From an uncultured Bacteroidota bacterium (GTDB lineage Bacteria > Bacteroidota > Bacteroidia > Flavobacteriales > Flavobacteriaceae): a DNA stretch of 64,000 nucleotides. Positions 8,849 to 16,972 of this stretch are shown here, piece after piece (within the stretch, counting starts at the first letter, position 1; the number at the start of each line of letters is the position of its first letter). Below the pieces are notes generated by a model. The model did no database searches. It was not told where the DNA came from and saw only the letters and a program-made list of their open reading frames with translations. The DNA lies in NCBI GenBank assembly GCA_902594745.1, contig CACJNF010000003.1, positions 1 through 64,000 of the forward strand, written 5' to 3'. The translations under genes and the position numbers were made by a program.

Positions 8849-8855
8849 TTGGAAA

Positions 8856-8907
8856 CAGAGGAAGGATTTGACTGATTGCAACCTCTCAAAAAAATTGCTA
8901 AAGCAGT
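8856..8907 (+). promoter_or_regulatory. SAM-II-type riboswitch upstream of metK
   Basis: The conserved SAM-II core is visible in order. P1 is agagg (8857-8861) with cctct (8882-8886). The loop GATTTGA (8865-8871) is followed by TTGCA (8876-8880), and a 3' tail GCTAAA (8897-8902) completes the core. The pseudoknot is present as ACTG (8871-8874) pairing with CAGT (8904-8907). Three extra bases (AAG) between P1 and GATTTGA differ slightly from the usual spacing. SAM-V shares this core and is the main alternative. SAM binding would be expected to lower expression of the metK-metY-metX-osmC transcript. Confidence 0.8.
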
Positions 8908-8957
8908 AATTCTTTTACAAGCAATCACGTCTTATTTTTTCTCACAAACTTAAAACT

Positions 8958-12883: not shown

Positions 12884-12914
12884 TTTGATATTTTAAATAC
12901 CTATTATACTTTTG
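12884..12914 (+). promoter_or_regulatory. promoter of the aromatic amino acid operon
   Basis: TTTG at 12884-12887, a 19-nt spacer and TACTTTTG at 12907-12914 form a consensus Bacteroidetes promoter. Transcription should begin at about 12918-12920, only 2-5 nt before the leader-peptide ATG at 12922, so the leader would be almost leaderless. Confidence 0.75.
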
Positions 12915-12921
12915 TTAGGTT

Positions 12922-12981
12922 ATGAAACAAAATTTTAATTTTTATTATACATATTACTTCTCTCATCAGAAGGCAGGATAA
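12922..12981 (+). CDS. Phe/Tyr-rich leader peptide of the pheA operon
   Basis: A 19-codon ORF encoding MKQNFNFYYTYYFSHQKAG and ending TAA. Seven of 19 residues are aromatic (3 Phe, 4 Tyr), clustered at codons 5-13. It sits between a consensus promoter and a terminator hairpin in front of pheA-tyrA-aroG-aminotransferase, whose products make Phe and Tyr. This is the classical layout of a ribosome-mediated attenuator leader: stalling on scarce Phe- or Tyr-tRNA would expose the antiterminator half overlapping the stop codon. Too short for routine gene finders. Confidence 0.85.
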   Translation: MKQNFNFYYTYYFSHQKAG

Positions 12982-13017
12982 TTATGTATAATTCAATTAA
13001 AATATAATAGTCCTGTC
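12972..13017 (+). promoter_or_regulatory. antiterminator helix of the pheA attenuator
   Basis: GGCAGGAT (12972-12979, at the leader stop codon) can pair with GTCCTGTC (13010-13017) as 8 bp including two G-U pairs. The second strand is also the 5' arm of the terminator, so the two structures exclude each other. A ribosome at the stop codon would cover the first strand and let the terminator form; one stalled at the aromatic codons would leave it free. Confidence 0.7.
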
Positions 13018-13036
13018 AAATCAGGACTTTTTTTTT
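13009..13036 (+). terminator. intrinsic terminator (attenuator) before pheA
   Basis: AGTCCTG (13009-13015), a 6-nt loop and CAGGACT (13022-13028) give a perfect 7-bp stem followed by an uninterrupted T run to 13036. It ends 2 nt before the pheA ATG, an unusual place for a constitutive terminator. With the leader peptide and the competing helix it is best read as an attenuator. Confidence 0.9.
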
Positions 13037-13038
13037 AT

Positions 13039-13848
13039 ATGAAAGTGTCAATACAGGGAATTAAAGGTTCTTTTCACCATATGGTGGCAAATGAGTATTT
13101 TGAATCTTTTGAATTACTAGAATGTTCAACCTTTGAAAATCTAGTTAAATCAATTGATAAAGAAGAATCTGACTTTGGTGTCATGGCAATTGAAAATTCA
13201 ATTGCTGGATCAATACTTCCAAATTATGCACTAATTGATGAGTATAATCTTTATATAACAGGAGAACATTATTTAAATATAAATCATAATTTAATGTGTC
13301 TGGCTGGGCAAAAAATTGATGAAATATATGAAGTGCAATCACATCCAATGGCTTTACTTCAATGTTCCAAATTTTTTAATAATTATCCTCATATTAAACT
13401 AATTGAGAGCGAGGATACAGCTTTATTTGCAAAAAAAATCAAAGATGAAGAAATGCTAGGTGTTGGTGCCATTGCAAGTAAAGATGCTTCAAAAATATAT
13501 AATTTAGAAATTCTTAACGAATCAATACAAACTATTAAAAATAACAAGACAAGATTTGTGATTCTTGAAAAAAAGAAAACTAATGATGAATTCAATAAAG
13601 CTGCACTAAAGTTTATTCTTGATCATAAAAGAGGAAGTTTAGCTTCAGTTTTAAATATGATGAGTGATTGTAGTCTAAATCTTACTAAGATTCAATCTTT
13701 ACCAGTGATACAAACACCAGGTAAATACGCTTTTTTTGTTGATATTACTTTTAACTCAGTAGTTAACTACAATAAAGCAAAAAAAATTATTGAGATTATG
13801 GCTCAAGAATTTAAAGTTTTAGGTGAATATAAAATTAAAGAATTATGA
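13039..13848 (+). CDS. pheA: prephenate dehydratase
   Basis: Converts prephenate to phenylpyruvate, the Phe branch. 269 residues. The catalytic dehydratase domain (about 1-180) has QGIKGSFHH, the AIENSIAGSI segment, SHPMALLQC and the signature TRF at 171-173. An ACT domain (about 188-265) includes RGSLASVL and KIQSLPV, expected to bind Phe for feedback inhibition. No chorismate mutase domain is attached; that activity is fused to the DAHP synthase in the same operon. The start codon lies immediately after the attenuator T run. Confidence 0.95.
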   Translation: MKVSIQGIKGSFHHMVANEYFESFELLECSTFENLVKSIDKEESDFGVMAIENSIAGSILPNYALIDEYNLYITGEHYLNINHNLMCLAGQKIDEIYEVQSHPMALLQCSKFFNNYPHIKLIESEDTALFAKKIKDEEMLGVGAIASKDASKIYNLEILNESIQTIKNNKTRFVILEKKKTNDEFNKAALKFILDHKRGSLASVLNMMSDCSLNLTKIQSLPVIQTPGKYAFFVDITFNSVVNYNKAKKIIEIMAQEFKVLGEYKIKEL

Positions 13849-14693
13849 ATGTAGGAGTAATTGGCTTGGGATTAATTGGAGGGTCTATAGCTCTAAAGAT
13901 TAAGGAAATTGATAAAAATACAGTTATCTATGGACTTGATAAAGATTTGGATTCAATGAGTTATTCTTTAAGCAAAGGTATAATAGATAAAAAACTAGAT
14001 ATCAACTCAATTAATAACTTAAAATATATTTTTATTGCAATACCTGTAGATGCTATCAAAAGTGAAATAGAGTCAATTTTGAATAAAATCTCAAATAATA
14101 CTTTGGTTGTTGACTTGGGTTCAACAAAGTATGAGATATGTAAAAAAGTACAAGATCATTCTAATAGAAAAAATTTCCTTGCAGCCCATCCAATTGCTGG
14201 TACTGAGTTTTCGGGTCCTTCAGCTGCAATAAATAATCTTTTTGATAATAAGGTTTTAATTCTATGTGAAACAGAAAAAACTGATCAAGATTTATTATCA
14301 GATGCTTTAAAAATTTTTGATTTAATGAATATGAATATTATTAATATGGACTCTATTGAACATGATAAGCATATAGCATATGTGTCACATCTGTCTCATA
14401 TTTCGTCTTTTATGTTAGGGAAGACAGTAATGAACAAAGAAAAAGATCAAGATACAATTTATGATATGGCTGGAAGTGGATTTGAGTCTACTGTAAGGTT
14501 AGCAAAAAGCTCTCCTGAAACATGGGCATCAATTTTTGTAGAGAACAAAAAAAATATTTTAGAATCACTTAATGAGTATATCTCTAATATCAATAATTTT
14601 AAAACTTTAATTGAAAATGGTGATAAAGAAAAATTAAGTGCTGAAATGAAAAAAATAAATGGTATTAAAGAAATACTTAACGGAATTAAATAA
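13845..14693 (+). CDS. tyrA: prephenate dehydrogenase
   Basis: Oxidatively decarboxylates prephenate to 4-hydroxyphenylpyruvate, the Tyr branch. 282 residues. The Rossmann motif GLGLIGGS at residues 6-13 binds the dinucleotide, and HPIAGTEFSGPSAA and YVSHLSHISSF carry the substrate-site histidines. No ACT or chorismate mutase domain is appended. Its start overlaps the pheA stop by 4 bp. The Tyr codons in the leader peptide fit control of this gene as well as pheA. Confidence 0.95.
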   Translation: MNVGVIGLGLIGGSIALKIKEIDKNTVIYGLDKDLDSMSYSLSKGIIDKKLDINSINNLKYIFIAIPVDAIKSEIESILNKISNNTLVVDLGSTKYEICKKVQDHSNRKNFLAAHPIAGTEFSGPSAAINNLFDNKVLILCETEKTDQDLLSDALKIFDLMNMNIINMDSIEHDKHIAYVSHLSHISSFMLGKTVMNKEKDQDTIYDMAGSGFESTVRLAKSSPETWASIFVENKKNILESLNEYISNINNFKTLIENGDKEKLSAEMKKINGIKEILNGIK

Positions 14694-14699
14694 ATAATT

Positions 14700-15782
14700 A
14701 TGGAAAATAAAAAAGAGTTTAGAAGCTGGTTAGACAAAATGAATCTAGGGCACCCATTGGTTATAGCTGGACCTTGTAGTGCTGAAACTGAAGAGCAAGT
14801 TTTAAAAATTGCTCATGACCTTAAAGACTCAGATGTATCAGCATATAGGGCAGGTATATGGAAACCTAGAACTAGACCTGGAATGTTTGAAGGTGTTGGT
14901 GCAATTGGATTAAACTGGTTAGAAAAAGTTAAAAAGGAAACAGGACTTATGATTGCAACAGAAGTTGCAAATTCAGTTCATGTAGATCTTGCACTTAAAC
15001 ATGATGTTGATATATTATGGATTGGGGCTAGGTCTACAGTATCTCCATTTATTGTTCAGGAAATTGCAGATGCACTAAAAGGAACTGACAAAATTGTTTT
15101 AGTTAAGAATCCAGTTAATCCTGATTTAGCTCTTTGGTTAGGAGGTATTGAAAGAATTTACTCTTCAGATATAAACAAAATTGGAGTTATACATAGAGGA
15201 TTCTCATCCTATGATAAATCTAAATACAGGAATAATCCAGAATGGCAAATTGCAGTTGAGCTTCAAAATAATTTTCCTGACCTACCTCTAATATGTGATC
15301 CATCTCATATTGCTGGAAGAAGAGACTTAATTTTTGATTTAAGTCAATCTGCATTAGATTTAAATTTTGATGGTTTAATGATTGAGACACACTGTGACCC
15401 AGATAATGCCTGGAGTGATGCTGCTCAACAAGTAACCCCAAAAAGATTAATTGAAATAATGAAAGATTTAACAATTAGAGAAAAGACTTCAGAAGGTGAA
15501 GATTATATAAACAAACTTAATACTCTTAGATCTCAAATTGATGTTGCAGACCAGAATTTATTGTCAACATTCGGAAAAAGGATGGAAGTTGCAAAAGAGA
15601 TTGGTCAACTAAAGTCTGATAATAATGTAGCAATTTTACAAAATAAAAGATGGAACGAAATTCTTGGAAAGATGATTTTAGATGGAGAGGAACATGGGTT
15701 AAGTGAAGAATTTATTTTAAGAGTATTTAAAGCAATTCATCAAGAATCAATTAATAATCAAAAAAAAATATTAAATAAATAA
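14700..15782 (+). CDS. aroG: bifunctional DAHP synthase / chorismate mutase
   Basis: 360-residue fusion. Residues about 1-255 are a type I-beta DAHP synthase (AGPCSAETEEQ at 23-33, YRAGIWKPRTRPG, CDPSHIAGRRDL, MIETHCDPDNAWSDAAQQ), which starts the shikimate pathway. Residues about 260-355 form an AroQ-type chorismate mutase (INKLNTLRSQIDVADQNLL, KRMEVAKEIGQLK). The fusion lets one protein control entry and the Phe/Tyr branch point, as described for Bacteroidetes and Bacillus relatives, though here the mutase is C-terminal. The gene symbol follows common annotation; aroF or aroA(G) are also used. Confidence 0.93.
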   Translation: MENKKEFRSWLDKMNLGHPLVIAGPCSAETEEQVLKIAHDLKDSDVSAYRAGIWKPRTRPGMFEGVGAIGLNWLEKVKKETGLMIATEVANSVHVDLALKHDVDILWIGARSTVSPFIVQEIADALKGTDKIVLVKNPVNPDLALWLGGIERIYSSDINKIGVIHRGFSSYDKSKYRNNPEWQIAVELQNNFPDLPLICDPSHIAGRRDLIFDLSQSALDLNFDGLMIETHCDPDNAWSDAAQQVTPKRLIEIMKDLTIREKTSEGEDYINKLNTLRSQIDVADQNLLSTFGKRMEVAKEIGQLKSDNNVAILQNKRWNEILGKMILDGEEHGLSEEFILRVFKAIHQESINNQKKILNK

Positions 15783-15790
15783 TCTATAAA

Positions 15791-16972
15791 ATGTTATCAG
15801 AAAAAATAAAGTCTTTACCGATATCTCAGACGGTTGCAATGACAGCTAAAGCACATGATTTGAAAAACCAAGGAATAGATGTAATAACTCTAAGTGCAGG
15901 TGAGCCTGACTTTAATATTCCAGATTACATAAAAGAAGCAGCAGTTGAGGCTATTAATGATAATTATCATAAATATTCTCCGGTTGATGGTTATCTTGAT
16001 TTGAAAAAATCAATTTGTAAAAAATTTAAAAGAGATAATAACTTAGATTATGATGTAGACCAAATAGTTGTTTCAACAGGAGCGAAACAATCAATTGCCA
16101 ATGTGTGTATGTCACTTATAAATAAAGGAGATGAAGTCTTAATTCCTACTCCATATTGGGTAAGTTACAGTGCCATGGTAGCATTAGCTGAAGGAGTTCC
16201 TGTATTTATAAATCCAGATGAGGACTCAAATTATAAAATTACTGCTCAACAACTTGAATCTGCGATTACAGATAAAACAAAAATGTTAATGCTTAACTCA
16301 CCTAATAATCCAAGTGGATCAGTTTTTACTGAACAAGAATATCTTGAATTTTCAAAAGTTCTATCGAAGTATCCTAATATAATTATTGTATCAGATGAAA
16401 TTTATGAACACATAAATTATGGAGTAAAATCTGTAAGTTTTGCAAGCTTACCTGGAATGTATGATAGAACAGTTACTGTAAATGGAATTTCAAAAGCTTA
16501 TGCAATGACTGGATGGAGAATAGGTTATTTGGGAGCACCAAAAGTAATAGCTAAAGCTTGTAATAAAATGCAAGGTCAAATAACTAGTGGTGCAAATTGC
16601 ATTGCTCAAAGAGCTACAATTAAAGCATTAGAAGAGTCACCTGAAAAAATTCAATATATGGTTGATGAATTTAAAATTAGAAGAGATTTTATAATCGATC
16701 TTGTAACACAAATCAATGGTTTTATTATAAAAGAACCACCTATGGGGGCATTTTATATTTTCCCAGATATCTCAGAATTATTCGGTAAAACATTTAAGGG
16801 TGTATCTATCAAAGATGCAAATGATTTATCAATGCTCATTCTTGAAAAAGCTCATGTTGCAACTGTTCCTGGGGATGCTTTTGGTTATCCTAACTGTATT
16901 AGAATTTCTTATTCAGCTTCAAGAGAACAAATTGAAGAAGCAATTAAAAGAATAAAAGACTTATTATCTTGA
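15791..16972 (+). CDS. aspartate/aromatic aminotransferase, class I
   Basis: 393-residue fold type I PLP aminotransferase of the AspC subgroup I-gamma. It shows LSAGEPDFNIP, STGAKQSI, NSPNNPSG, the PLP-binding SDEIYEH, Lys235 in SKAYAMTGWRIGY and the carboxylate-binding arginine of CIRISYS. As the last member of the aromatic operon it probably transaminates phenylpyruvate and hydroxyphenylpyruvate to Phe and Tyr, or acts on prephenate or aspartate; the sequence alone cannot separate these. The rsmG start overlaps its stop. Confidence 0.9.
   Translation: MLSEKIKSLPISQTVAMTAKAHDLKNQGIDVITLSAGEPDFNIPDYIKEAAVEAINDNYHKYSPVDGYLDLKKSICKKFKRDNNLDYDVDQIVVSTGAKQSIANVCMSLINKGDEVLIPTPYWVSYSAMVALAEGVPVFINPDEDSNYKITAQQLESAITDKTKMLMLNSPNNPSGSVFTEQEYLEFSKVLSKYPNIIIVSDEIYEHINYGVKSVSFASLPGMYDRTVTVNGISKAYAMTGWRIGYLGAPKVIAKACNKMQGQITSGANCIAQRATIKALEESPEKIQYMVDEFKIRRDFIIDLVTQINGFIIKEPPMGAFYIFPDISELFGKTFKGVSIKDANDLSMLILEKAHVATVPGDAFGYPNCIRISYSASREQIEEAIKRIKDLLS

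Follow-up and report, generated by a model that had tools for sequence, protein, structure and literature searches.

The operon for PheA, TyrA, a DAHP synthase fused to chorismate mutase and an aminotransferase in a flavobacterial DNA stretch of 64,000 nucleotides (the window) is very probably controlled by a ribosome-mediated transcription attenuator, in which the translation of a short leader peptide would report on the supply of charged Phe- and Tyr-tRNA. This reading had been proposed in a preliminary description of the DNA, and it is now supported by the conservation of the leader among relatives, by the coevolution of its paired segments, by the spacing between the control codons and the antiterminator segment B, and by the folds predicted for different positions of the ribosome.

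Elements of the leader region

The features of the locus are collected in Table 1. The Bacteroidetes-type promoter, the 19-codon leader frame with its three Phe and four Tyr codons, the 8-bp helix between the leader stop region and the strand 13010-13017, and the perfect 7-bp terminator with its T run, which shares the strand 13010-13015, were all found as the preliminary description had reported them. The -7 box of the promoter, which has the form TAnnTTTG, is present in all 21 genus loci scanned; a sigma-70 scan was uninformative (52 matches against 59.2 expected by chance). When the offset between box and start is taken from F. psychrophilum, transcription is predicted to begin at about 12919. 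Seven of the 19 leader codons are aromatic, and the presence of seven aromatics in the 18 codons that follow Met has a binomial probability of 2.5e-4 given a background of 7.7% in the four operon enzymes. The window locus has a joint score of 64, which combines the aromatic ORF, the terminator and the pairing of the stop region; when the 345-nt stretch was shuffled 2000 times with its dinucleotide content kept, no shuffle scored as high.

Table 1. Features of the pheA leader and operon in the window
Feature	Position	Strand	Description
Bacteroidetes-type promoter	12884..12914	+	TTTG (-33) 12884-12887, 19-nt spacer, -7 box TACTTTTG 12907-12914
Leader peptide ORF	12922..12981	+	reads MKQNFNFYYTYYFSHQKAG, then stop 12979-12981
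Control codons (predicted)	12943-12960	+	mainly Tyr8-Phe13
Segment A (1)	12944..12953	+	Tyr-codon stretch; pairs with C, 10 bp, perfect
Hairpin P1	12957..12972	+	small; 12957-12961 with 12968-12972, between last Phe codon and B
Segment B (2a)	12972..12979	+	leader stop region; GGCAGGAT with GTCCTGTC of D (13010-13017), antiterminator pairing, 8 pairs including two G-U
Segment C (2b)	12981..12992	+	12983-12992 with A, or 12981-12987 with 13002-13008 (extended antiterminator)
Segment 3	13002..13017	+	C' 13002-13008 and D 13010-13017; 3' half of antiterminator
Intrinsic terminator (predicted)	13009..13036	+	AGTCCTG 13009-13015 with CAGGACT 13022-13028, then T's to 13036
pheA, prephenate dehydratase	13039..13848	+	NCBIfam NF008865, 7.7e-57, 192.6 bits, below cut-off of 219
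tyrA, prephenate dehydrogenase	13845..14693	+	NCBIfam NF006307, 351.4 bits, above cut-off of 295
DAHP synthase fused to chorismate mutase	14700..15782	+	NCBIfam matches to both domains, below curated cut-offs
Aspartate/aromatic-type aminotransferase	15791..16972	+	NCBIfam NF041091, 392.2 bits, below cut-off of 550

The paired segments follow the classical 1-2-3-4 order, because C is able to pair either with A or with C', and D, which can pair either with B or with E, the 3' arm of the terminator, shares bases with the terminator's 5' arm. Four of these components go beyond the preliminary description: the 10-bp A:C helix (12944-12953 with 12983-12992), the extension of the antiterminator to 19 bp (12972-13017), the hairpin P1 (12957-12972) and the near-leaderless start. 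P1, which has base 12972 in common with B, also appears in the alignment fold. The RNA from 12915 to 13045 has a fold energy of -25.9 kcal/mol (z = -3.8), which was equalled by none of 200 shuffles, and the two terminator-like matches found between 8500 and 18400 both correspond to the hairpin at 13009-13036, one on each strand.

The four genes downstream carry the identities assigned to them earlier, in that each was recovered through its best NCBIfam match, with the match to tyrA above its cut-off and the other three below theirs; by these assignments, the operon makes the amino acids that are specified by the control codons. The genes upstream of the leader are metK, an O-acetylhomoserine sulfhydrylase gene, a metX homologue and an OsmC-family gene. 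A SAM-II (long loop) riboswitch at 8852-8911 (78.9 bits) precedes metK and two Met-synthesis genes, so that two adjacent groups of amino-acid genes carry different RNA switches.

Conservation and coevolution of the leader

The comparison with relatives was based on pheA genes located in 45 of 60 relatives, 87 of 146 genomes of the order and 41 of 149 genomes of the class, from which 129 upstream regions were taken and 121 loci retained after the removal of 8 duplicates; the sample tracks PheA similarity and is therefore non-random. A call was obtained for 90 of the 121 loci and a joint score of at least 60 for 85; the same threshold was reached by 2 of 2420 shuffles and by 2 of 2172 control pieces of real sequence taken from elsewhere in these loci. 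All 23 pheA loci of the window's genus have an aromatic leader, 21 of them with scores of at least 60 and the other two just below (L002, 58; L006, 59), and the aromatic codons of these leaders are held in every locus while the flanking residues vary. A looser scan combined with inspection by eye identified 11 more loci with an aromatic leader (L002, L006, L040, L041, L090, L102, L107, L108, L109, L123 and L125), which brings the combined total to 96 of the 121 non-duplicate loci; the upstream regions of L085-L090 were inspected in part, or judged through the scoring and the looser scan. The expectation that the leader ORF and the alternative helices would be found in relatives was thus borne out. 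The five nearest named records are the uncultured Bacteroidetes AG-912-I19, AG-426-I09 and AG-916-L03, together with two Flavobacteriaceae metagenome genomes; the AG- isolates we take to be marine single cells.

The leader is not universal. A clear leader is missing or doubtful in 25 of the 121 pheA loci (L093 and L118 are examples of doubtful cases), and six loci of one family (f5: L044, L045 and L118-L121) are among those without a clear one. Six 600-kb genomes of a single family (L110-L115) have kept pheA, but no aromatic leader attenuator was seen in the 330 nt that precede it, L110 giving a low-scoring call of 41. In the other classes of the phylum, a leader and terminator were recognized by eye within 260 nt of pheA in 4 of 20 genomes (L147, L163, L175 and L176, in which PheA is 41-48% identical to the query L096), and none was recognized within that distance in the other 16. 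Downstream gene order differs between genera, being pheA-aminotransferase-tyrA(-DAHPS) in many of them (L023, L024, L051-L054 and others) and pheA-tyrA-DAHPS in the window's genus, and the leader is retained despite this difference. Leaders with Trp codons are found in 13 of the 24 sequence clusters described below, whereas the window's own cluster has none among its 21 scored leaders. This pattern suggests that in other genera the element may respond to Trp as well, DAHP synthase feeding the synthesis of this third end product too.

The coevolution of the segments was evaluated by grouping the 85 loci into 24 clusters at 70% identity and permuting the partner segments among clusters. Native partners paired better than permuted ones both for D:E (z 18.8) and for B:D (z 9.7), and in each case none of 500 permutations was as good, which bears out the proposal that both helices should covary; the z value for D:E is biased and partly circular, because the terminators were themselves found by pairing. 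The A:C helix gave a z value of 8.6 with position limits and 7.0 without them, again with none of 500 permutations as good, and the wider figure of 7.0 is the safer one because the limits were set after an earlier A:C result. That earlier analysis had given a mean z of 0.90 with a C segment that was too short, and a value of 1.28 per cluster was obtained when C was taken from the end of B. Class-wide support for P1 is weak (z 2.8, with 2 of 500 permutations as good).

Permutation among the 24 clusters is the main test, because covariation inside the genus alone is limited by the fact that D:E does not vary there and B:D varies on one side. Across the 23 genus sequences, all 7 pairs of D:E are invariant, which makes this helix uninformative at that level. 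The B:D helix is 95.7% paired, with changes that are one-sided in every case and no two-sided change; at least one pair is lost in 6 of the 23 sequences (three at one pair, two at two pairs and one at another). For A:C, 55.7% of cells are paired under the alignment used, compared with 28.7-45.4% when the alignment is slid by 1-3 columns, in a count whose reference structure was derived from one of the 23 sequences counted; the helix is imperfect in the genus, yet its pairing exceeds that of all 500 column shuffles. P1 is paired in 93.9% of cells over the 23 sequences, against 40.0-73.0% in the slides. When genus sequences are taken singly, the strongest pairing of the ORF with the segment that follows the stop scores 19.4 on average, compared with 15.6 in shuffles, and several sequences, including L009, L012, L013, L021 and L022, do not rise above their shuffles.

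Predicted switching and the position of the ribosome

From these elements we infer how transcription start, leader translation, stalling, termination and read-through would be connected in the cell. Transcription would start at about 12919, and the ribosome would begin the leader almost at the 5' end of the RNA. If charged Phe-tRNA and Tyr-tRNA were both available, the ribosome would reach the stop codon at 12979-12981 and cover B and C, which would leave D free to pair with E, and the RNA polymerase would terminate at about 13029-13036, just upstream of pheA. If charged Phe- or Tyr-tRNA were scarce, the ribosome would stall at Tyr8-Phe13, where it would mask A and leave B and C free to pair with C' and D in the 19-bp antiterminator, and transcription would proceed into the operon. 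In untranslated RNA, the A:C pairing would favour termination.

The folds predicted for the window locus follow this scheme. With the ribosome stalled at Tyr12 or Phe13, the downstream RNA folds into the 19-bp hairpin (12972-13017, -15.4), and with a stall at Tyr8 it folds into an 18-bp antiterminator beside P1 (-16.4), both of which use up D; with the ribosome at the stop codon, the downstream RNA gives the terminator alone (-10.4). When the stall is placed at Phe5, part of A stays unmasked, and the predicted structure is the antiterminator as long as arm E has not been made but the terminator at full length, so that Tyr8-Phe13 should be the main sensors. The geometry of the leader is in agreement with this assignment. 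A ribosome covers about 10 nt of RNA beyond the codon that occupies its A site, and the run of aromatic codons ends a median of 10 nt before B (interquartile range 8-11, measurable in 84 of the 85 loci) and 11 nt before it in the window, so that stalling at any of the control codons would leave B just exposed.

In the relatives, the switch is found when folding is considered before arm E has been made. In this test, D is at least half bound upstream after a stall, and not after the stop, in 77 of the 85 loci, including all 21 genus loci scored, and in 18 of the 24 clusters; among shuffled controls the figure is 320 of 960. With the ribosome at the stop, none of the 85 loci has half or more of D bound upstream, compared with 272 of 960 controls. 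D is also bound in 60 of the 85 loci when the RNA before E is untranslated, so that A:C does not clearly force termination. A full-length equilibrium switch occurs in only 19 of the 85 loci (4 of 24 clusters), yet this is more than the 4 of 850 seen in controls, and most relatives must therefore rely on kinetics. The loci in both tests were selected partly for B:D pairing, with L002 and L006 left out, and the pre-E test was adopted after equilibrium folding had failed as a switching test for most relatives.

The fact that most relatives prefer the terminator in every state at full length, including after a stall, also agrees with a different explanation, namely that the terminator is constitutive or is controlled by a protein or metabolite in the manner of a riboswitch, and that the small ORF is translated by chance or as an aid to reinitiation; short leader genes near structural genes, whose distances peak at 11-14 bp in Bacteroidetes, have been proposed to act as such aids in the account given in PMC4833913. 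This explanation is nevertheless very unlikely, since neither a plain nor a riboswitch-like terminator accounts for the retention of the aromatic codons throughout the genus while their flanks change, for the number of loci that pass the joint score, or for a codon-to-B spacing that stays near 10 nt. An Rfam family as the explanation of the locus was considered and rejected, which counts further against a riboswitch: apart from the SAM-II element before metK and a tRNA, no family reached its gathering threshold in the window, and none matched the locus L001 at E values up to 1.

The position of the hairpin raises a second alternative to attenuation of transcription. The terminator arm ends exactly 10 nt upstream of the pheA ATG in all 21 scored genus loci, the window included, and at most 20 nt upstream of the gene in 39 of 64 others, as would suit a leader which is mainly translational, with a hairpin that hides the pheA start and does not terminate transcription. 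In every one of the 23 genus sequences, however, the hairpin finishes with nine consecutive T's, the first of which still belongs to the stem. Such a tract is the mark of an intrinsic terminator and renders a mainly translational role extremely improbable; T-rich tails follow the hairpin in the relatives too, though the caller required such tails there.

A hairpin that ends 10 nt from pheA would also sit in the pheA initiation region, where it could block translation in addition to terminating transcription. The start of the leader has an equally close geometry. According to the main text of PMC9723704, the -7 box in F. psychrophilum spans positions -12 to -5, and leaderless transcripts make up 5.5% of the mRNAs examined there. 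With this offset, the leader in the window has a predicted 5' UTR of about 3 nt, and the predictions for all 21 scored genus loci fall in the range 2-5 nt; 49 of the 64 other loci have a good promoter match, with a median predicted 5' UTR of 14 nt, and in 5 of these 49 the value is 5 nt or less, one of the five being a spurious negative value. It can be tentatively suggested, as a possibility that is on present evidence doubtful, that this genus of small-genome, probably marine flavobacteria has a two-level variant of the attenuator, in which a leader with almost no UTR is translated independently of Shine-Dalgarno (SD) sequences and the hairpin also blocks the translation of pheA in transcripts that escape termination.

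Relation to known attenuators and biological meaning

The pheA leader of gamma-proteobacteria and the trp and his attenuators have leader ORFs rich in the amino acid that is the end product of the operon, together with mutually exclusive antiterminator and terminator structures. The gamma-proteobacterial pheA leader (RF01859, Phe_leader) resembles the present element in its target gene, its aromatic leader ORF and its mutually exclusive structures; it differs in that the element described here uses Tyr as well as Phe codons, with Trp codons in some relatives, precedes the operon pheA-tyrA-DAHPS/CM-aminotransferase, and is not expected to use an SD sequence, Bacteroidia ribosomes being reported in PMC9976891 to fail to recognise it. 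RF01859 has no match at gathering in the window and none in L001 at E values up to 1; in L024 (1320-1436) it gives a full-length but weak match of 31.8 bits, against a gathering threshold of 55 (E 0.11).

Within the phylum, attenuation before aromatic operons has already been signalled, and the earlier statement that no experimental description was known in this group was in this respect partly wrong. The main text of PMC9723704 reports transcriptomic clues of leader-peptide attenuation before amino-acid operons in F. psychrophilum, and a structured element before pheA which is present in other Flavobacteriaceae genera; this element precedes the same gene in the same family as the leader described here and likewise has no Rfam match. 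The sections cited here set out neither the sequence of a pheA leader nor its helices and codons, which the supplement (Table S7, SI Appendix D9) may describe. A putative attenuator is also listed in Table 7 of PMC1173090 before the equivalent Bacteroides thetaiotaomicron operon, pheA > hisHb > aroAIb-aroQ > tyrA, as a tabulated database prediction, in passages that name no leader peptide. The Bacteroid-trp RNA (RF01692), presented in PMC2864571 as a cis-regulatory motif of Bacteroidetes and in PMC6414381 as similar to the Trp leader and preceding the F. psychrophilum trp operon, differs from the pheA leader in operon and codons; it has no match at gathering in the window, and none at E values up to 1 in eight loci that include L001 and three trpE loci of the genus. 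The Sinorhizobium meliloti trpL is leaderless, with the start codon of the leader peptide at the 5' end of the RNA according to PMC7298713, and belongs to another phylum and another amino acid; here, the 5' end is predicted to lie about 3 nt upstream of the ATG.

The genus has a separate leader before trpE, in which two or three Trp codons follow one another in all 15 loci examined (L131-L145, of which L143 is from the window's own genome and has the leader MIKINTYWWWTHER, followed by a stop codon). The ATG of the trpE leader abuts or overlaps the stop of the preceding gene in most of these loci, as in TAATG, and the T run of the terminator ends about 3 nt upstream of trpE. The hisG gene (PF01634) was found in 1 of 25 genus genomes, one with 4% contamination, which suggests that histidine synthesis may have been lost, though most genomes of the set are incomplete.

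The kind of regulation described here is classic, and is not new in kind for this group. In the open literature, supplements aside and some sources being covered in part, no account was found of the leader sequence, the four segments, the class-wide range or the near-leaderless start; the third helix, the predicted 5' UTR of 2-5 nt and the terminator arm 10 nt before pheA are new here. The analysis sets out in explicit, testable form the parts with which many Bacteroidia may sense Phe and Tyr, by means of a leader element that occurs before pheA through much of a class whose ribosomes are reportedly SD-independent, and that holds its place as the order of the downstream genes varies. The predicted 5' UTR of the genus offers a natural case for how a near-leaderless start supports attenuation and, if the two-level variant is true, a single reading by the ribosome would set both transcription and translation.
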